Origin: Coemansia sp. RSA 487
Lineage: Eukaryota; Kickxellomycota; Kickxellomycetes; Kickxellales; Kickxellaceae
Assembly: GCA_027577595.1 (NCBI GenBank)
Contig: JANBRJ010000009.1
Span: 1-64,000, forward strand
Reading direction: 5' to 3'
Length of the DNA stretch: 64,000 nt
Positions 6,702 through 46,225 of this stretch are shown piece by piece; positions within the stretch are counted from its first letter, which is position 1; each line of letters starts with the position of its first letter. The position numbers and the translations under genes are program-made. A model generated the notes under the pieces. That model searched no databases and was not told where the DNA came from. It saw only the letters and a list, made by a program, of their open reading frames with translations.

Positions 6702-9378
6702 TTAGTTGGCGCTCTTAGTCAAAAGTTGTACTGGTTTCCACTTCCTAGTAGCGGCGTCGAGCTTGTGTAGCTGAGTCAGAATATGTACAACGTTGCTGCC
6801 AATAGCAATCCCAATGTCGACGCGCTCGGTGCACCCGGAAAGACAGGCTGGGTACCTATTTTCTATTATCTGGTCCAGCGCTTTTTTAGCCAAGGCTTCG
6901 TGGTGCCTAATGTTATCACGTTTTTCCCGAGGAATCAGCTTAAACTCAATTAGAACGCCGAACTGGTTTGGTTTGTTGTCGGTGCTGTATAGCCGCATCA
7001 GATGGTCACATTGCCCGTCGCCTGTGTAGTTCTCGCGTGTTGTAACAGCATGTGATACATGAGAGTATGCCTGATCTGGGTGCAAGAGTGCTCCAAGACA
7101 CGATGCTGCTGTCAATACCGTTGCCACAATGTTCGCATAATGCTTCTCCTTGTATTTTGCGTGGTTTGTGAGTGTGCCGAATGCCTCCATGATAAAGCTG
7201 GAAAGGATAGCGGTCTTGCCTTCCCAAAGCTCAACAAGCAACGACCCACGCGCATTGACGTCAGTTCTTTCCACAAACCCTGTTCCCAACAGTGTACGTG
7301 TGAAAAGAGTGCACCACACATTATATACCTCGTGGTTCGGGATGCACACCGAGTCTGGATGCTTGTGTGTCAGATAGCCAGCGAAAAGACAGAGCGTGAG
7401 CATTCCCTCTGTCGAATACTTACCGGAACCAATAATGTTCATATTTGGCTTTGGAAGCTGCAGTGAAACCGCCTGGCTGTTACTGAGAGCGAGATCGTGA
7501 TCAAGCCCACCAAGCCTTGTCTCCCTGTATTCGCGAATCAAGCTTTCCATTAAACAAATGGCTTGATCACAATGGTTGGTAAATTGCTCTTCGATAAGAT
7601 CGGTTGTACCTGTAGCTACCCAGTGCGCTCTGGCTGCAGGTCTAATGGCATCAGGTACGCTCCGAATCTCCCCATGCTCAGACGACTCTAGTTGGTTGCA
7701 GAGGCACTCTACAAATGCGCATACCGACCATGGGTTGTACTTGCCACGGAACCGCCCAAAATGATATCCGTTGTACCAATCCTTTATCACTGCCATAACC
7801 TCGTCCCTGTGTTCGGCTATCTGCGGAAAGCGAATGGCACTCTTTTCTAGCAGCCCCTCAACTTCCTTTGTGTTAAACCAGAATGAGTCTGTCAATGCGT
7901 CCAAGCCCTTGCCAGAGTGTTTGTAGGTGGCGCTGACGATACTGCCATCCCCTGTTACATTCTTGAATGGCACCATCGGAAAATCCACAATATTGTTCGC
8001 GCCGGATCCGAGCTCCGCCAGTGGTACTTCGAATACGCCAACCAAGAGTCCTTTACGAAGGTAGCGGTTATCCTATAGCACAAGAACAAACGGCAACTTT
8101 AACAAAAACGTGTATGTGTCAAACGCTTTACATAGATGGGAGGTTTGGGAGAGTTGCTTGCGGCTTACCTTGAACATTAGCTGAATCAAAACCTTGAGCG
8201 AGCTTTGCACCTCTTTCTTCTCTTTCTCGTCGCTCCATGATTCCAAATGGGAATGGATAAAAGGGACATCGTATTCGTCGATGAGTAGGATATATTTACC
8301 AATGCATTCGCCCACAAACTCCGATAAGCTTATAAAAAGCTGCATGGGCAGACTGGCATACTTGCTGGCAAACTCTTTGGCGTCATACCTAGCACCCTTG
8401 TAAACGGCGAGGGTTTCCTGAAGCGTTTGTAGGTATATGTTGGTGTTTTCAACTTTAACACCTTCGATAAGAGGGTATTCTTTCAGCCAATTATTGGCAG
8501 CAGTTGCAATCGCATCACAAAGACTGGCGAGGAACACTCCAGCTGGCGTCCTCTTACACACACTAAACGAGATGTGTATTACTGGGTGCTTCATGAAATG
8601 CTCGTCGAAAAACGCACGGTGCTTCTCCTTGAGCAATGAATCCTTGAACAGCAGTGTGCGCTTTAGCCGGCACTTTGTAGCAACGTCCATCTGTCGTATC
8701 TGCTCTGCCGATCGACCAAGCTCTTCAATCGCGCTGTCTGGAGCATCTAGGTGCGACTCTTCTGACGCCTTGCTAAAGAACAGAAGCAGCTGAATTAGGT
8801 TGTATGTTTTTCCGGAACGACGTGGCAAGCATATGCGACCAGATGACTTGACCATCTCCCAAAAGCCAATACAAAAAAGTGACTTGTCGACCGTGCAAAC
8901 TATCGCACTACCAGCATCGGTAAATGAGGCATTGACCCCCACACGAGTTCCAGAGACTCTGACTGGCGAACTGCTTAGTTTAAACAAACGCAATGCCTCT
9001 TCAGGAGCCCGCGGTTCTGGCGTATGTTGTTCCGGTGTTCGTATTTCGGGTGGTGGTGGACTGATGCTTAACGCTTCAGAAGACTGTGGTTCTGGTATAT
9101 GCTGCTCCAGTGTACGCAGTTCAGGTGGTGGACTGCTGCTTAGCACTTCAGGAAGGACAGTGGTGGTTTGTGGTTGCTGGTGTGACTTGTTTGCTCTGTG
9201 GGCGTTTCGCTTTCGGCGCATAAGCTCGTTTGTAATAGGCCCAATCTCGTCTTCATCATCAGGCTCGTTCTTCCTAGTGATTCAGAACTTTTGAAAACAA
9301 AAGCATGTTTAGTACGCATTGTTGGACATTGTCGACTGTCAAAATGAGCTCTAGAACTAAACGTTTGTACCTTTTCAT
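6702..9378 (-). CDS. AAA-ATPase-like and PD-(D/E)XK nuclease domain protein
   Basis: Exons 9371-9378 (tentative), 8169-9273 and 6702-8072 join in frame to 827 residues. Without the 8-base first exon, translation starts at 9221. The 8073-8168 intron has a clear donor (AAG/GTAAGC) and acceptor (CTATAG). Domains in order: a low-complexity N-terminus with two copies of an S-P-P-P-E-x-RT-x-EQH unit; a P-loop ATPase with Walker A PRRSGKT and Walker B YILLIDEYD, then the family's K-G-L-x-x-G-V-F signature across the splice; and a C-terminal restriction-like fold with D (CDHLMRLYS), ExK (IEFKL) and a QIIENRY helix. This pairing matches the AAA-ATPase_like plus PD-(D/E)XK (DUF1703) proteins of bacteria and some fungi, whose role is unknown. 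All key residues are present, so it looks intact. Direct repeats flank it. Confidence 0.8.
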
Positions 9379-28682: not shown

Positions 28683-31600
28683 TCATCGACTATCGCTTGC
28701 TCGTGCGATTTTGAGCTGCTTCAGATATTCCGCGTAGCTCACGCCATCGCGCTTGTGCCATGGTGCAAAGGAGTCGGTGAATAGCCTTCCACTACAACTG
28801 TGCCATCAACAAGACATAATCAAACCAACAAGAGTCAGTATAGATATCTACATAAAAACGTATGACAAGCCCTATGAAAATGTGCACACTATACACACTG
28901 AAATCACAACGGATCTGGTGATAATAACAATCCATGAAACGGGGGGGTGTGTGGGTGGATAGACAGTGCAATCGAGGGATTTTGCATTGTGCAGCTGAGG
29001 TCACGACTTCTGTCGGCTAAGCAAGCACACATTTTCCTTTATTCGTTTTTTTGCCCTCAGCATTTCCCACCAAAAATTAATGAATCGTTCGCACATGAGC
29101 ATGGCTTGCCATTTATACGTACCTTGTATCCGAAAGATGCGCAATTCTTTCTTCCGTGGCCTCTGACTCTGCAACCAGCCGAAGGATGCCTTCAGCTTTA
29201 CTTCTGTCCACCCAGTCTTTTATTGCTGTTCCAGCGGACGACCTTCGGTGTCTTGATTCAGCACAGAGTCTGTCGATCGTGTCTTCCAATGTAATGCTGT
29301 CGTGATTGGCAAGTGATCCCTCTACAAAGAAAATAGCCGTAGTTTATGTGTGTGATACATTCACGGAAAAGCCAGCTGTGGGCATTAGCCAAATGTAAAT
29401 ATCCAAGACATGTGTACCTTTGTCCAAGCAATACAAATCCTTTTTGATTCGTGTGTAACTTACCCGACAGCAACAACAGCCGTGCCATACGCGCCTTGCT
29501 CTCAGCCAAGCTGGCTCTTACATTCTCCATCACATGGACTTGGCGCAGTCCTACAAAAAAACAAGGAAAAGCATAGTTAATTACTGCATTAATTTTTGCA
29601 TTGTTCTGCTTGCCCAGAGTCACGCACACATACACATAAATAGCACACATTATCGAAACTCCATAAAAAGAAAAACAAGCCCTGCCTGCGGATGGATATA
29701 ATAGCAAGGAGCAAAGGTCGCCTCTTCCGGGAAAAGCTCCGCAGCAGCATCGAAGGGGGCTGCATTCTTGTCCACAAAAATAGTCAATATATGCATGATG
29801 TAATGTCAGCTAACACAAGAATAATCTTGCTTGATGGTGGGCACATTTGTCAATAAAAGGCGACCACCAAAAACTCCATAACACTATCCAACTTTGGAAA
29901 ATTGGAAAACGTAAAAGAATATTGCTTACCTTGTACTAAATTCTCGCCAATACTTGCAACAGCGAGTTCGTGTGCTTGTCCTGATATGCCTGGCGTTTGG
30001 GAAAATATGCCGCCGATTTTCTGGAGCCGCTCAACCTCGACAAGATTGCTGCTTGTCACGAGCTTGTCCGCTGGTTTGGTTATCCTTTTGGTTTGGTCGC
30101 TATGTAAATTCAAAGATATATTTAGCATCTCATATTTACATGTATACTTATTTTTGACAAGTTTCAAAAAAGGTACAAATAGCCGTAGATTTGTAAAAAT
30201 AAAGTGTCAAATATCAAATCACATCATTCATTGCTCTTACCTAGAGTCTATAGTCAAATGCTGAAGACGCCAAATGTCAACAGCATTCCACGCCTCCCGA
30301 GGATCTGCATAGACAAGTGCATGTACAAACCGTTTGTTTTCAGTGAAAACTTTAGACGAAACAAACCCTTCCACATCTGCCACACATTGCTTGATATCAG
30401 AAAGGAGTGTCTGAATTCGGCCTACGGTTTGTGTTATCTGGTCCGTCTTCTCACCACTGTCGCTGTGTGACCACATGCTCCTACTTTGTGATACTAGATC
30501 AGGCACAAGCGAGCCAAGCCTTTCATTGATATGCGATGCTGCCTCATGAATGACGCTCTGGAATATTGCGTTTCTAAGCTCGGCAGTATCTGGCGAATGC
30601 CTCGAGACATTCGCTGCTTCAGTGTTCATGCTAATCTGTCCAGCAATGCGCTCTACCTTTTCGACTAGCTCGTCTTTCTTCGAGTTCGCTCGTTCTTGAG
30701 TTGTCTGTATCTCTCTCCACATTTGCACACATCGGTCCTCCAGCTCCTAGACACGTACAAGTAATCAAACAGACATTCAGGATAACACTGGTTGTTAATT
30801 TTGAGCATGCTCTGCAGGAGGAATAGATATTGGACGACAACCCAGCGCCAAATGTTTTATAATTTACCTTTAAGCAGGCGATGATTCCTGCTACCATCAA
30901 CTGTCGTTCTTTGTACAGATCGTCTGACTCCCTTGCCCTGTCCCTACAAATACATAGCCGCATTAAAAGATATTTAGCAGCAATTAGATACAACAGCATA
31001 TAAATATGGCTGCCGAATAGTTGACTGCTGAGCTTACCTTGCCAAATGGCTATCCGAATTCTCTAAACCTGTTTCTTTCACTTTGGTTGTCAGCATGGTT
31101 AGAAACTCTACTGGGGCGTGTCTTACGTCCTTGTCTATAGCAGACGCAGACAATACGGAGCGAACGACATCTTGAGAGATATCCGACGGCTGTACAAGTG
31201 AAGAGCCTGGCATCATTTCCCTTGTGAGTCCTTTGACACGGGTGCTCATCTGACGCAGGTTTTCCGCCATCGCTTGCTTCATAAGGATCTGCAACCGTAG
31301 CTCACGGATTCTGTGTTCAGCGGAGGTCTTTTTAGCCTCAAGGTCGTTTATCTGCTGAATCACATTGTAGTTTTGACGATGCGTGCCGTCGATTTCGCTC
31401 AGAAAATGCTTCTCTTTTGCGCGCATACTCTTCACACCAGTAAAAAGCGATATATACGCAAGATCTGGGGCATCTTCTCTGTTGGTGGGTCCAAGCTGGT
31501 CGCAGTACTCTGCTAGTCTGCGTCTGGCGAAGCTGGCGTTCTGGGATGACACGATGTGGGCTGATGCAAGTTCTAGGATATGTGCTAGCCTGCCTTGGAG

Positions 31601-31753
31601 CAGTGGCTCAAGCTCCACCGGCTGGATCGTCTCCTCGCCCTTTGCAGTTACCAGTGTTGACTTTTTCCGAAATCCAAGCTCCTCAGTTGCCCAGTCCGCA
31701 ATGAGCTTGGCCGCTTGCTCCTTATCTGCGCCCTTGGCTTTTGTCGTGGACAT
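28683..31753 (-). CDS. HAUS5: HAUS augmin-like complex subunit 5 homologue (multi-exon)
   Basis: Exons read by eye: 31038-31753, 30868-30943, 30241-30746, 29930-30099, about 29686-29759, 29464-29550, 29123-29321 and 28683-28797. All junctions keep phase with good GT/AG sites except between exons 5 and 6, which I could not resolve. The sum is near 645 residues, close to human HAUS5 (633). The N-terminus has the family's head: DWATEELGFRKK, then LLQGRLAHILELASAHIVSS. Long coiled coils follow. The C-terminus (DSFAPWHKRDGVSYAEYLKQL) matches the conserved terminal W/LxxYL motif. Augmin recruits gamma-tubulin to spindle microtubules for branching nucleation. Head, coiled coils, tail and length agree; the identification is probable, not certain. 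It is divergent from centrin. Confidence 0.65.
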
Positions 31754-32233: not shown

Positions 32234-32740
32234 ATGAACGGCTATAGCCATTTTGCCTCCTCGCAGCGCGCCAGCAGCTCACGGCAAGCAGTGCCAAAGG
32301 TTAGCGACGAAAGGCTAGAAGAGATTAAGGAGGCATTTGATTTGTTTGACACAAACAAAGATGGGTTCATTGACTACTTTGAGCTGAAGGTTGCGATGCG
32401 TGCGCTTGGCTTTGACCAAAAGAAGAGCGAGGTTGTCAGTGTGCTTGAGCGGTATGGGAAGCCCGACGGCGACCAGATTGGGCTAGAGGGCTTTACTGTA
32501 GCCATGTCGGAGAAGATTAGTGCGCGCGACCCAGTCGACGAGTACAGGAAGGCGTTCAAGCTCATCGACGAGAACAACAGCGGAAGAATCACGGTTGCTC
32601 ATCTGCGCCGCATTGCGAGAGAGCTTGGCGAAGATATTAAAGATGACGAGCTGCAGGCGATGATTGAGGAGTTTGACGTGGACAACAACGGCGGCATCAG
32701 CGAGCAAGAGTTTATAAAGATTATGACCAGTGGTCACTGA
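32234..32740 (+). CDS. CDC31: Centrin / Cdc31
   Basis: A 168-residue EF-hand protein from the ATG at 32234, the length of centrins. Hand 1 ([12 protein letters not shown]) and hand 4 ([12 protein letters not shown]) have complete calcium loops. Hand 2 ([13 protein letters not shown]) and hand 3 ([13 protein letters not shown]) are degenerate or low-affinity, the usual centrin pattern. Between them sits the centrin linker with [16 protein letters not shown]. Centrin binds Sfi1 at the spindle pole body or centrosome and also TREX-2 and Rad4/XPC. The short serine-rich N-terminus is typical. It is divergent from the HAUS5 homologue. Confidence 0.93.
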
Positions 32741-37989: not shown

Positions 37990-40601
37990 ATGGTCCCTAT
38001 TTCAATGGTCCCGACCGGTTTTGAGAGCCGTCGTGCAGCAACCGAGTACATTGAGAACGAGCTGAAAAAGCGTATCATGTTTTTGGATGGTAAGTCTATC
38101 GATTTAAAGTGGGGTAGTATTGCGTGTTGCCATTCTAGCTGTAACAACGATAGAAAAACTTATATCACGGATCCGTCTTTATATTTATAACGACAATAGG
38201 TGCTATGGGCACACAGATCCAAGACCTGCGTCTTTCCGAGGAGGACTTTCGCGGCGATAGATTTACGGAGCACACACACGATCTTAAGGGGAACAACGAT
38301 CTGCTAGTGCTGACGCAGCCAAAGGCAATCTACCAGATCCACCGCAACTACCTTCTTGCGGGTGCCGACTTTATCGAGACCAACACGTTTTCGGGGACCA
38401 CAATTGCGCAGGCCGACTACGGAATGGAGTCTGTCGTGTACGAACTGAATAAGGTTGCAACAGAGATTGCCCGCGAGGCGTGCGCGGACATGCTGAAGGA
38501 GACACCCGACAGACCGCGCTTTGTGTGCGGCGCCATCGGCCCCACGAACCGCACGTGCTCGATCTCTCCGTCGGTGGAGAACCCAAGCTTCCGCAACGTC
38601 ACCTTCGACGAGCTTGTTACGGCCTACACAGAGCAGATTCGCGGTTTGCTGGACGGCGGCGCAGATGTGATTTTGGTCGAGACCATCTTTGATACTCTCA
38701 ATGCAAAGGCAGCCTTGTTTGCCATCGACACGCTATTCGACGATGGCGTGTATGAGCGCGTTCCGGTGTTTGTTTCCGGCACTATCGTCGACCAGTCTGG
38801 GCGCACGCTCTCTGGCCAGACGGGGGAGGCCTTTATCACCAGCGTCTCTCATGCAGAGCCCCTAGCCATCGGCCTGAACTGTGCGCTGGGCGCCAACCAG
38901 ATGCGTCCGTTTGTCCAGAGCATCTCCAGCTTCACCGCAAAGCATGTAATCTGCTATCCCAACGCTGGTCTTCCAAACACGTTTGGCGAGTACGATGAGT
39001 CGCCCGAGACGATGGCAGCCAACGTCAGCGTTTTTGCCCGTGAAGGACTGGTCAATATCCTTGGTGGCTGCTGTGGCACAACGCCCAAGCACATCAACGC
39101 AATCTATGAAGCGTGCAAGGACTTCAAGCCTCGTGTGGCTGGCCCCGACATCCGCAACGAGAAGATGATTCTCAGCGGGCTTGAGCCTCTCATGTACGAC
39201 GGGACCAGCAACTTTTTGAACATTGGCGAGCGCTGCAATGTTGCTGGGTCGCGCAAGTTTGCACGTCACATAATCAACGACGAGTACGAGGAGGCGCTTG
39301 CAATCGCACGCGCTCAGGTCGAGAACGGCGGCCAAGTCATTGACATCAACATGGACGAAGGCATGCTTGACGGCATTGCGGCTATGACAAAGTTCCTGAA
39401 TCTCATTTCAACCGAGCCTGATGTGGCCAAGGTGCCGCTTATGGTCGACTCTTCCAACTTTGCCGTTGTCGAGGCGGGTCTCAAGTGCGCGCAAGGAAAG
39501 TGCATTGTCAACAGCATCAGCTTGAAGGAAGGCGAGGCGGACTTTTTGCGAAAGGCACGGCTCATCAAGCGCTATGGTGCTGCTGTGGTGGTCATGGCGT
39601 TCGATGAGATTGGCCAGGCTGCCGAGCGCGAGTACAAGTTCAGGGTTTGCGAGCGCTCCTACCGCCTGCTTGTCGACAAGGTCGGGTTTAACCCCAACGA
39701 CATCATCTTTGATCCCAACATCCTGACGATCTGCACGGGTATGGAGGAGCACAACAACTACGGTGTCGAGTTCATCGAGGCTACTGCTGATATCAAGAGC
39801 AAGCTGCCCGGCGCAAAGATCTCTGGCGGCGTGTCCAACCTCTCCTTTTCGTTCCGTGGCAAGGAGACCATCCGCCAGGCCATGCACTCGGTGTTTCTGT
39901 ACCACGCAATCAAGGCCGGCATGGACATGGGCATCGTCAACCCTGGATTCCTGACAATCTACGATGAGATCCCCAAGGATCTCTTGGAAATATGCGAGAA
40001 TGCGCTGTGGAACCGCGACCCCGAGTCTACGGAAAAGCTCCTCGAGTACGCGCAAACGCATGGCAAGGATTCGGTGGCCAAGGGCGAAGAGGAGGAGTGG
40101 CGCTCGCATTCCGTCACCGAGCGTCTGAAGCATGCACTGGTCAAGGGGATCACAAAGTACGTTGTTGAAGACACCGAGGAGGCTCGCCTGGACAAGGAGA
40201 AGTACCCCCGCCCGCTCAACGTTATCGAGGGTCCGCTGATGGACGGCATGAGCGTTGTTGGCGACTTGTTTGGCGCAGGAAAGATGTTTTTGCCGCAGGT
40301 CATCAAGTCGGCCCGCGTGATGAAAAAGGCTGTTGCTCACCTCATTCCGTTCATGGACCAGGAGCGTCTTGAGAACCTCGAAAAGCTGGGCCACTCCGAG
40401 GAGGCCGACGATTCAGATATTTACAACGGCACTGTTGTTATTGCCACTGTCAAGGGCGATGTGCACGATATTGGCAAGAACATTGTCGGTGTTGTGCTTG
40501 GATGCAACAACTACAAGGTCGTGGACCTCGGTGTTATGACTCCTTGCGAAAAGATCATTGAGGCTGCTATCCGCGAAAAGGCTGATATTGTTGGGCTGTC
40601 T

Positions 40602-40636
<35 letters not shown>

Positions 40637-41903
40637 TGTCGCCAAAGAGATGGAGCGCGCCGGCCTCAAGACGCCTCTTCTCATTGGCGGTGCCACGACG
40701 TCCAAGACGCACACTGCAGTGAAAATTGCCCCTCGGTACGCGCAGCCCGTCGTCCACTGCCTTGATGCCTCGCGCTCGGTGGTTGTCGTCTCAAATCTGC
40801 TTGACAAGGGGCTGCGAGCCGATTTTATTGAGGAGGTTGATGAGGAATATGACGAGATCAGAGAGGACCATTACGACTCCCTCAAAGACCGCCGCTACCT
40901 GAGTCTGGAGGATGCGCGTAGCAAGAGCCACAAGATCGAGTGGAATCTTCCGGAGAATCTGCCACCAAAGCCAAACATGGTTGGCCACAAGGTCTACGAG
41001 GACATTGATCTCAACGATGTCTTGCCGTATATCGACTGGAATCCGTTCTTCCAGGTCTGGCAGCTCCGCGGAAAGTACCCCAACCGCGGCTACCCCAAGC
41101 TCTTTAACGATGCGACGGTTGGCGAAGAGGCTCGCCGTATCTTTGACGAAGCTCAGGTCATGCTACACGACCTGATCAAGAAGCGTCACATCCGTGCCTC
41201 CGCTATTGTCAGCATCCTACCAGCCAACGCCAAGGGTGACGATATTGTCGTTTACAGGGACGAGTCGCGCACCGAGGTCGCTGGAGTGTACCACGGGCTT
41301 AGACAGCAGGCAGAAAAGGAGAAGGAAAGCAACGACGCTTACATGTGTCTGTCGGACTTTATTGCCCCCGAATCCACCGGCATCCCCGATTATATTGGCA
41401 GCATAGCGGCGTCTGCTGGCTTTGGCGTAGACGAACTTGCGCGCAAGTACGAGGCCGACAACGACGACTATTCCGCCATCATGGTCAAGGCGCTTGCCGA
41501 CCGCTTTGCTGAGGCTCTAACTGAGAAGCTCCATCAAGACATGCGTCGTGAGCTGTGGGGCTTTGCGCCCGACGAGTCCTTGGAGACGCAGGACCTGCTG
41601 AGCATCAAGTACCAGGGCATTCGTCCGGCACCGGGATACCCGAGCCAGCCCGATCACACGGAAAAGGCAACCATGTGGGAGATTGGCAACATCCACGATG
41701 CCACCGGAATCGAGCTCACCGAGAGTTTGATGATGCACCCAGGTGCGTCGGTCTGCGCGCTTGTCTTTGCACACCCGAAATCGTCATATTTTGCGGTCGG
41801 CAAGATCACCAAGGGACAGATCGAGGACTATGCCAGCCGCAAGAACACTACGGTTGATGATGTTGAGACGTGGCTGCGTCCTATTCTTTCCTACGATGTC
41901 TAA
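37990..41903 (+). CDS. metH: Cobalamin-dependent methionine synthase (MetH)
   Basis: Exons 37990-38089 and 38200-41903 join in phase 1 (GATG/GTAAGT...AATAG/GTGCT) to 1267 residues; E. coli MetH has 1227. All four modules are present. The homocysteine domain has the zinc cysteines (LNCALG, Cys261; GGCCGTTP, Cys324-325). The methyltetrahydrofolate domain follows ([30 protein letters not shown]). The B12 modules hold a helical cap ([14 protein letters not shown]) and DxHDxxG ([11 protein letters not shown]) with the cobalt-ligand His789. The C-terminal activation domain binds S-adenosylmethionine ([12 protein letters not shown]). It makes methionine from homocysteine and 5-methyltetrahydrofolate in the cytosol. 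Dikarya use B12-independent Met6 instead, while B12-dependent enzymes are reported from early-diverging fungi. GC-rich, host-like codons and an intron argue against contamination. Confidence 0.97.
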
Positions 41904-44653: not shown

Positions 44654-46225
44654 CTAATTTAATAGCACTTGGCTGTCTGGAAACAACTTTTCCAAATACA
44701 TGTTCAACTTATCCATTTCATTCTTTTTGCAGCCAGGAATGTCGCCAACTGAAATATGTTTCAGGCTAAGGCTTATAGGCTTCACAATCGATTCCTCGTC
44801 TTGTATTTCTGAAATCAATTTGCCATATACTTTTAATTTCAATATGTGGATATGAATCTTCTCTAAGTTTGGCATCCTAGAAATTAAAGCTTTCAAGTTG
44901 TTGACATGGACTGGGCAAACCATTTCTATGTCCTGAAGATATCTCCAGTCCACTTGCACAATATTAAGAGGTATGCCATCAAACCCAACTCTTGCTTTAG
45001 TGTACTCTGCTAAATTGTGGATTTCAAGAACATCATTCATGTGTGCATACTTGCCAACAGTTTGGTATTCCTCTTGGCTACTCTTTGCATATCTAGCAAA
45101 TAACTCTCTGGCTTTATCTAGATTGAACCCAGTAAAGTTAAGAAGTGCCCATTCCGTTTCCAACTCAACATCTCTTATAGTTGTTGATCCATGAATCGAT
45201 GACAGAAATGAGAGTGTAAATGGGCAGAGTCGAATATGTATAGTTTCAAGTTTTGGTGCAATCACCTTGTAGTTGAATTTGCTTGCAGAATATTCCCAAT
45301 TGTTGGTTACCTCATTAACCATGTCATAAGTAACTTCAACTTTTAGTTGAAGCCATTTCAAATTAGCAAAGTTCAAACATCTTGGACTGTCATTGCTTTC
45401 AAAGGAGCTCCAATCAAATTCACTGCTTATAAAACTTAAATCCAAGTATATCAGATTTTCTGCACATATCTGAGGCATATAGTCCATAATACAATAATAT
45501 CCATTTACCTCAACAAGCCTTAGATTATTTGAAAAGCTAGGCACATCTTCAAGCGCTAATTGTGGATAATTGAATCCTGTCAGTTGGTGTGCATAGCCTT
45601 TGATCAATGATTTGGCAAATCCCATCATTACAGGTGGTGCACTAGTAAAGTTAATCCATTCAATAAACTTCGCTGACGGAATAAGCTGAGACAGCTCTTC
45701 ACCTATCAAGCTTGCTTCTGCAATACTAGTAGGTTTGTCAGTCCATGCATCACCTCTGAAACGTAGGTCACAAATTGGCTCTACCCTTCTCACATTCTTT
45801 AGTAAACCGGCATGGCAGCGTATCTTTTCTATTACCCCTTGGAGGCTGTGGACTGGGTCACAGGATGTTTTGACAAAGATTTGGACAGTTTTGGGCCAAT
45901 ATTTTCCATCTTTCTTCTCGATTATATCCAGGTTAGTCTTGACTATATATGTTTCCACTTCAGAAGCCATGTCTTCATAATCAGCATAACTTGGAATTGA
46001 GCTACCATGTCTATTATTGAACTTTATATGGATGCACCCAACAAATGATGTCATGTGCACATTTGGAAGTGCTAGTTCTCTCCATACCCTGCAAACGGAC
46101 AGAAGCGCAAGCTTGGTTCTCCATGTTTTTAGCTTATAGGCTTTGGAGGATAGACAGTCAGGATCATCGCAAGCCCAATATAAAACCCTTGCAAGAACCA
46201 CATCGGTAAGCTCGTTAATATGCAT
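44654..46225 (-). CDS. F-box-like protein, copy 2
   Basis: A 523-residue single-exon paralogue of the gene at 253-1881. They are collinear throughout and identical in long stretches (LKTWRTKLALLSVCRVWREL). The N-terminal F-box-like motif is intact (MHINELTDVVLARVLYWA). It lacks copy 1's acidic serine repeat and has its own short insert (YDMVNEVTNNWEYS). Synonymous and conservative differences suggest both copies stayed under selection. It sits between conserved housekeeping genes (VPS45, PHO84) with a solo LTR 103 bases upstream of its ATG. Ubiquitin-ligase adaptor role is inferred; targets unknown. Confidence 0.7.
   Translation of the reverse strand: MHINELTDVVLARVLYWACDDPDCLSSKAYKLKTWRTKLALLSVCRVWRELALPNVHMTSFVGCIHIKFNNRHGSSIPSYADYEDMASEVETYIVKTNLDIIEKKDGKYWPKTVQIFVKTSCDPVHSLQGVIEKIRCHAGLLKNVRRVEPICDLRFRGDAWTDKPTSIAEASLIGEELSQLIPSAKFIEWINFTSAPPVMMGFAKSLIKGYAHQLTGFNYPQLALEDVPSFSNNLRLVEVNGYYCIMDYMPQICAENLIYLDLSFISSEFDWSSFESNDSPRCLNFANLKWLQLKVEVTYDMVNEVTNNWEYSASKFNYKVIAPKLETIHIRLCPFTLSFLSSIHGSTTIRDVELETEWALLNFTGFNLDKARELFARYAKSSQEEYQTVGKYAHMNDVLEIHNLAEYTKARVGFDGIPLNIVQVDWRYLQDIEMVCPVHVNNLKALISRMPNLEKIHIHILKLKVYGKLISEIQDEESIVKPISLSLKHISVGDIPGCKKNEMDKLNMYLEKLFPDSQVLLN

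Follow-up and report, generated by a model that had tools for sequence, protein, structure and literature searches.

A probable, highly diverged HAUS5 augmin subunit predicted from seven exons in the fungus Coemansia sp. RSA 487

Augmin is a protein complex that promotes the formation of new microtubules along the flanks of existing ones, and HAUS5 is a fast-evolving subunit of it. The augmin subunits HAUS3 and HAUS5 lie side by side over nearly their full length in the solved augmins and have an N-terminal bundle in common, as described in the text of PMC9512787. A fungal HAUS5 has been reported from Rhizophagus irregularis (ESA01078.1); it is plant-like and was called a transfer from plants, and the basis given in the 2018 text for this claim was that no other fungus had a HAUS5 at E 1e-3 (PMC5982333). 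The augmin purified from Aspergillus nidulans contained Aug1-4, Aug6 and AN0286, and HAUS5 was not recognised in it (PMC4086812). The words Aug5 and HAUS5 are absent from the main text of that paper. A structure paper of 2025 describes augmin and NEDD1 in its text as not conserved across fungi and protozoa, leaving open whether this reflects divergence or absence (PMC12748588). Among the open-access titles and abstract openings listed, there was no report of HAUS5 in a fungus other than Rhizophagus.

The window analysed here is the whole stretch of 64,000 nucleotides from contig JANBRJ010000009.1 of Coemansia sp. RSA 487. On its minus strand, splice reconstruction gave a candidate HAUS5 gene that starts with an ATG at 31753 and ends with a stop codon at 28685-28683. 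It consists of seven exons and six introns of 94-379 nt, all six introns having GT-AG ends. The spliced coding sequence of 1,869 nt encodes 622 residues and a stop, with no earlier in-frame stop. The features of the gene and of its predicted protein are as follows, exons 2 to 7 being placed by the splice model and the codon model.

31038..31753, minus strand: exon 1, with the start codon (31753-31751), the HAUS5-like head and the first predicted coiled coil; 716 nt, without stops
30944..31037, minus strand: intron 1, GT-AG, 94 nt
30868..30943, minus strand: exon 2, 76 nt
30747..30867, minus strand: intron 2, GT-AG, 121 nt
30241..30746, minus strand: exon 3, the middle of the protein
30100..30240, minus strand: intron 3, GT-AG, 141 nt
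29930..30099, minus strand: exon 4
29551..29929, minus strand: intron 4, GT-AG, 379 nt, with no convincing extra exon inside
29464..29550, minus strand: exon 5
29322..29463, minus strand: intron 5, GT-AG, 142 nt
29123..29321, minus strand: exon 6, containing DWVDRS, the segment aligned with HAUS5 by MAFFT
28798..29122, minus strand: intron 6, GT-AG, 325 nt
28683..28797, minus strand: exon 7, with the stop codon
31505..31702, minus strand: HAUS5-like head, residues 18-83, by the hhalign head profile
31217..31471, minus strand: predicted long helix, residues 95-179, by AlphaFold2 without an alignment on exon 1
28701..28769, minus strand: HAUS5-like tail, residues 595-617, by the hhalign tail profile, aligned with Arabidopsis AUG5

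A sequence-only reading of this locus had put the start at 31753 and the stop at 28683, had quoted peptides from the head and the tail, and had joined exons in phase at GT-AG sites; all of these features are present. The same reading had assembled the gene from eight small exons. The count is corrected here to seven, as the search of intron 4 for an eighth exon returned in-phase candidates with GC donors only and none with a GT donor, and the length of exon 1 means that not all the exons are small.

The coding evidence comes from a codon model built from the 50,137 codons of 79 long ORFs other than the candidate; the model penalises stops and thereby favours open frames. With this model, the proposed frame scored above the other two same-strand frames in all seven exons and above the best antisense frame in six, the exception being exon 2 (0.013 vs 0.017). 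In absolute terms, the codon scores are clearly above zero only in exons 1 and 5 (0.142 and 0.249) and range from -0.073 to 0.018 in the other five, against -0.778 to -0.194 for the introns in all frames. The G+C content is 0.47-0.57 in the exons and 0.26-0.42 in the introns. A decayed or wrongly joined gene would agree with the near-zero codon scores of five exons and with the very strong divergence from HAUS5. However, a stop stands in frame only at the last codon, GT-AG is found at every intron, and each of the seven exons combines the best frame with a higher G+C than the introns, so that decay or misjoining is extremely improbable. The candidate gene looks real, as predicted from its sequence.

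The divergent neighbour of the candidate, at window positions 32234-32740 (plus strand), is a centrin gene; in the PDB it matches Cdc31 best (E 8.5e-44), and Cdc31 belongs to the spindle pole body. The start codons of the two genes are 480 bases apart, and a common promoter region may serve both. Further along, window positions 38205-41903 (plus strand) encode a methionine synthase of the B12-dependent type, in which five Pfam domains score over their cut-offs; this enzyme is a trait of early-diverging fungi. A chitin synthase with a Chitin_synth_1N domain is present in the genome and marks the organism as a fungus, and the genome size of 17.8 Mb suggests a fungus outside the Glomeromycotina. 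At window positions 6702-9221 (minus strand) there are two adjacent ORFs, one with an AAA-ATPase-like domain (E 2.9e-7) and the other with a weak PD-(D/E)XK nuclease match (E 0.00093, below cut-off); the two may derive from a single gene that is spliced or broken. Two similar ORFs about 43 kb apart, at 253-1881 and 44654-46225 (both minus strand), both start MHINEL(P/T)DVVLAR(I/V)LYWAC and are apparent paralogues judging by this likeness; the ORF at 253-1881 had no Pfam match at E <= 0.001. Relatives of exon 1 were also sought in viral contigs, where a pattern occurred in seven stretches and tblastn confirmed none.

The predicted protein was compared with HAUS5 reference sequences taken from PDB chains of human (7sqk_E), Xenopus (8at2_E) and Arabidopsis (9na8_E). 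With the whole three-species profile, the sole hhalign match paired HAUS5 2-66 with residues 12-85 at 31% identity (P 0.013; P 0.017 with a separately made alignment). A head profile compared with the first 110 residues scored 30.1 over 66 of 68 columns, with a P of 3.2e-5 that, like the P values of the tail profile, is optimistic because the profile boundaries were picked after earlier alignments. Under the whole HAUS5 profile, the exon 1 ORF came first among 397 ORFs (27.8 vs 25.1 for the best of the other 396), all of which begin with ATG, have 100 residues or more and were collected in six frames from the window and from 31 further stretches of this genome. As these control ORFs are mechanical, many of them non-genes, and cover about 0.3 Mb of the 17.8-Mb genome, a better HAUS5 elsewhere is possible. 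When the sequence was shuffled within blocks of 20 residues, none of 500 shuffles reached the score of 27.6, the best giving 25.7.

The tail gave a fainter signal. Within the last 140 residues, PWHKRDGVSYAEYLKQL aligned near the C-terminus with the Arabidopsis tail segment (score 16.1, P 0.048, hhalign program probability 1.1%); six of the 397 ORF tails scored as high, and none of 400 block shuffles (best 15.8). The same score on the last 60 residues had a P of 0.018 and was reached by two of 222 ORFs, so the tail is weak alone. Scored jointly at their proper ends, the head and the tail reached 46.2, a value that none of the 222 ORFs attained (best 26.8), and none had as high a head score either; these controls were ORFs of this genome with 150 or more residues, exon 1's own ORF being excluded.

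The distance of the candidate from known HAUS5 proteins can be read from a calibration in which a human and Xenopus profile matched Arabidopsis HAUS5 at P 6.8e-11 and the candidate protein, over its full length and via the head, at 0.098; by these values the candidate is much farther from the animal and plant proteins than those are from each other. The single human sequence matched the head (P 0.094), the single Arabidopsis sequence the tail (P 0.23), and the single Xenopus sequence gave its best match, at P 0.11, to a coiled coil in the middle of the protein, with the register shifted. In exon 6, MAFFT placed DWVDRS opposite the DWWEQP and EWWEQP of animal and plant HAUS5. Of the earlier proposal that head, coils and tail all match HAUS5 in order and in total length, the head and the tail agree in order and place and the length is similar (622 vs 633 in human); the HAUS5 signal does not lie in the coils. 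Profile comparison with HAUS5, suggested in the same reading, singled out the head and the tail at the right places, the hhalign probability of the head match being low (3.4%).

Direct searches with the predicted protein returned no HAUS5. The Pfam HAUS5 family (PF14817, cut-off 25.6 bits) was matched at E <= 10 neither by the whole protein nor by exons 1 and 3 taken singly, and four head and tail pieces matched no Pfam family, HAUS5 included, at E <= 10; the filters of HMMER discard weak matches. When Pfam HAUS5 was searched against the whole genome in six frames there was no match, and 14 controls were likewise silent, so this result does not imply absence. By phmmer there was no match to PDB chains at E <= 10, and when the three HAUS5 sequences were made into a HMMER profile, 711 of 2,001 controls (the reversed sequence and 2,000 shuffles) ranked ahead of the protein. 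Because it is proposed from the head, the tail and the context, the protein is classed as a 'probable HAUS5' and not as a Pfam member. These failed searches speak against the HAUS5 reading; if the reading is right, they would explain how such a gene escapes annotation.

The Pfam scores also bear on a different explanation, namely that the protein belongs to another coiled-coil family, such as the Golgi tether COG6, and is HAUS5-like by its helices only. Its best scores, though weak, do fall on helical and coiled-coil families, with COG6_N at 0.042 for the whole protein, Angiomotin_C at 0.022 for exon 1 and DUF3584 at 0.0083 for exon 3. However, none of the 13 Pfam listings for the protein and its pieces reaches its own cut-off, COG6_N, the top family for the whole protein, is absent from the pieces, and the HAUS5 signal sits in the head and the tail, whose pieces have no Pfam family at all, and not in the coils. 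Membership of another coiled-coil family is accordingly improbable. Only Med9, DUF948 and DUF1664 are common to the whole protein and a piece. The COG6 candidate was set aside at 14.4 bits for COG6_N against a cut-off of 27.4; another gene of the genome scores 35.6 bits (E 1.2e-7), over the cut-off.

HAUS5 proteins are mostly helical, with long coiled coils and about 600-800 residues. The AlphaFold2 model, which covers exon 1, has a pLDDT of 53.9, with block means of 79-90 at residues 121-160 and values mostly under 50-60 elsewhere. The modelled helix of residues 95-179 is probably a coiled coil. Foldseek with this low-confidence model against the PDB gave no match at E <= 0.001 and no augmin chain.

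The other augmin subunits, which the sequence-only reading had named as a further check, were searched for in the 17.8-Mb genome with Pfam profiles of HAUS1 to HAUS4 and HAUS6. Four of them were found over their Pfam cut-offs, namely HAUS6_N (E 4.1e-26), HAUS1 (E 2.2e-26), HAUS2 (E 2.4e-9) and HAUS4 (E 2.0e-9), and HAUS3 was found below its cut-off (E 6.7e-5; 25.3 bits against 29.4). In the reciprocal Pfam search each of the five subunit ORFs had its own augmin family at the top, and the HAUS3-like gene is probably HAUS3 on the strength of its sequence. Since HAUS1, HAUS4 and probably HAUS3 are present and HAUS3 is the partner of HAUS5 in solved augmins, a HAUS5 is expected in this genome.

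The candidate could instead encode a different augmin subunit, either HAUS7 or HAUS8, which lie outside the profile set used here, or a fungus-specific one. HAUS7 and HAUS8 are shorter, at about 350-410 residues, which counts against them. A fungus-specific subunit has a precedent in AN0286 of Aspergillus nidulans, which co-purifies with augmin and is described in the text as having no homology to known subunits (PMC4086812). The head and the tail of the candidate nevertheless fit HAUS5 in order and place, and its probable partner HAUS3 is there, which makes a different subunit highly improbable. AN0286, for its part, could be a diverged form of HAUS5. A separate observation concerns the HAUS2 ORF (L011 1435-2439, minus strand), whose N-terminal tail is basic and serine-rich, with 24 K/R against 5 D/E in the first 110 residues. 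This tail resembles the microtubule-binding tail of HAUS8, described in the text of PMC12748588 as positively charged and disordered, and by this resemblance HAUS2 may have taken over the role of the HAUS8 tail here.

The gene at this locus is very probably HAUS5, as far as sequence can tell; the interpretation first made from the letters is supported by the profile signal of the head and the tail, by the lack of any other family over its Pfam cut-off and by the augmin subunits of the genome. The candidate is thus a probable, highly diverged new member of the known HAUS5 family. As such, it would belong to the TIII rod of augmin, which has the four subunits HAUS1, HAUS3, HAUS4 and HAUS5, and its host would be a fungus, probably an early-diverging one, with most of augmin retained. 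By analogy with the solved augmins, its head would pack with the N-terminus of HAUS3, its middle and HAUS3 would together form a coiled coil that doubles back, and its tail would terminate in the four-subunit arm. The assembled augmin would sit on the microtubule via HAUS6 and bring the gamma-tubulin complex. This recruitment is the least certain step in the present organism, because the gamma-tubulin complex proteins (GCPs) found are GCP2 and GCP3 only.

Contigs C51 (L032) and C5 (L033): GCP genes (GCP3, GCP2), by Pfam and PDB match

The two GCP genes were found by both Pfam GCP models, with PDB matches to GCP3 (1.4e-76) and GCP2 (1.4e-52). Neither model found a GCP4, GCP5 or GCP6 in the genome, although intron-split or diverged genes could escape such a search. 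No SAS-6 was found in the genome, and its controls were silent too, so absence is not implied. Branched nucleation, which the sequence-only reading had drawn as an implication, may take place here by analogy with animals, with two grounds for caution: only GCP2 and GCP3 were found, and in the text of PMC4086812 no part in mitosis or in recruiting gamma-tubulin was detected for the Aspergillus nidulans augmin. In Dictyostelium, GCP4-6 are apparently absent and augmin is absent too, according to the text of PMC8534566, so augmin beside a complex of GCP2 and GCP3 only, if borne out, would be an unusual combination. A tentative and rather doubtful scenario is that a near-complete augmin including HAUS5 was kept while the gamma-tubulin complex was reduced, like that of budding yeast, to GCP2 and GCP3, with augmin recruiting the small complex directly or serving a non-branching role.

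Compared with the described systems, the candidate is like human and Xenopus HAUS5 (7sqk_E and 8at2_E) in its head, where WATEELG stands against WAVEEMG and is followed by an aligned ...L..G...I....H(I/V).S, in a predicted long helix after the head, in an aligned C-terminal tail segment and in its length (633 and 666 residues there, 622 here). It is unlike them in having no Pfam, phmmer or HMMER match and in reading DWVDRS where they have DWWEQP. With Arabidopsis AUG5 (9na8_E, 9pzm_E) it shares the C-terminal tail, the best single match of AUG5 being to PWHKRDGVSYAEYLKQL of the candidate, C-terminus to C-terminus. Unlike the candidate, AUG5 is about 170 residues longer (796 up to the fusion tag), and as a single sequence it reaches a P of only 0.23. 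The Rhizophagus HAUS5 is also fungal and is reported to be plant-like, a likeness taken here from its published description. The Aspergillus nidulans augmin has subunits 1, 2, 3, 4 and 6 in common with the set found here, and differs in that no HAUS5 was identified there.

A diverged HAUS5 beside HAUS1, HAUS2, HAUS4, HAUS6 and probably HAUS3 points to an ancestral fungal augmin with members that escape detection, and suggests, as we infer, that HAUS5 was inherited vertically while its sequence changed beyond recognition. A HAUS5 in this fungus would cast doubt on the plant origin claimed for the Rhizophagus HAUS5. In a fungus that has augmin, and in which GCP4-6 were not found, the need of augmin for a full ring complex would become testable.
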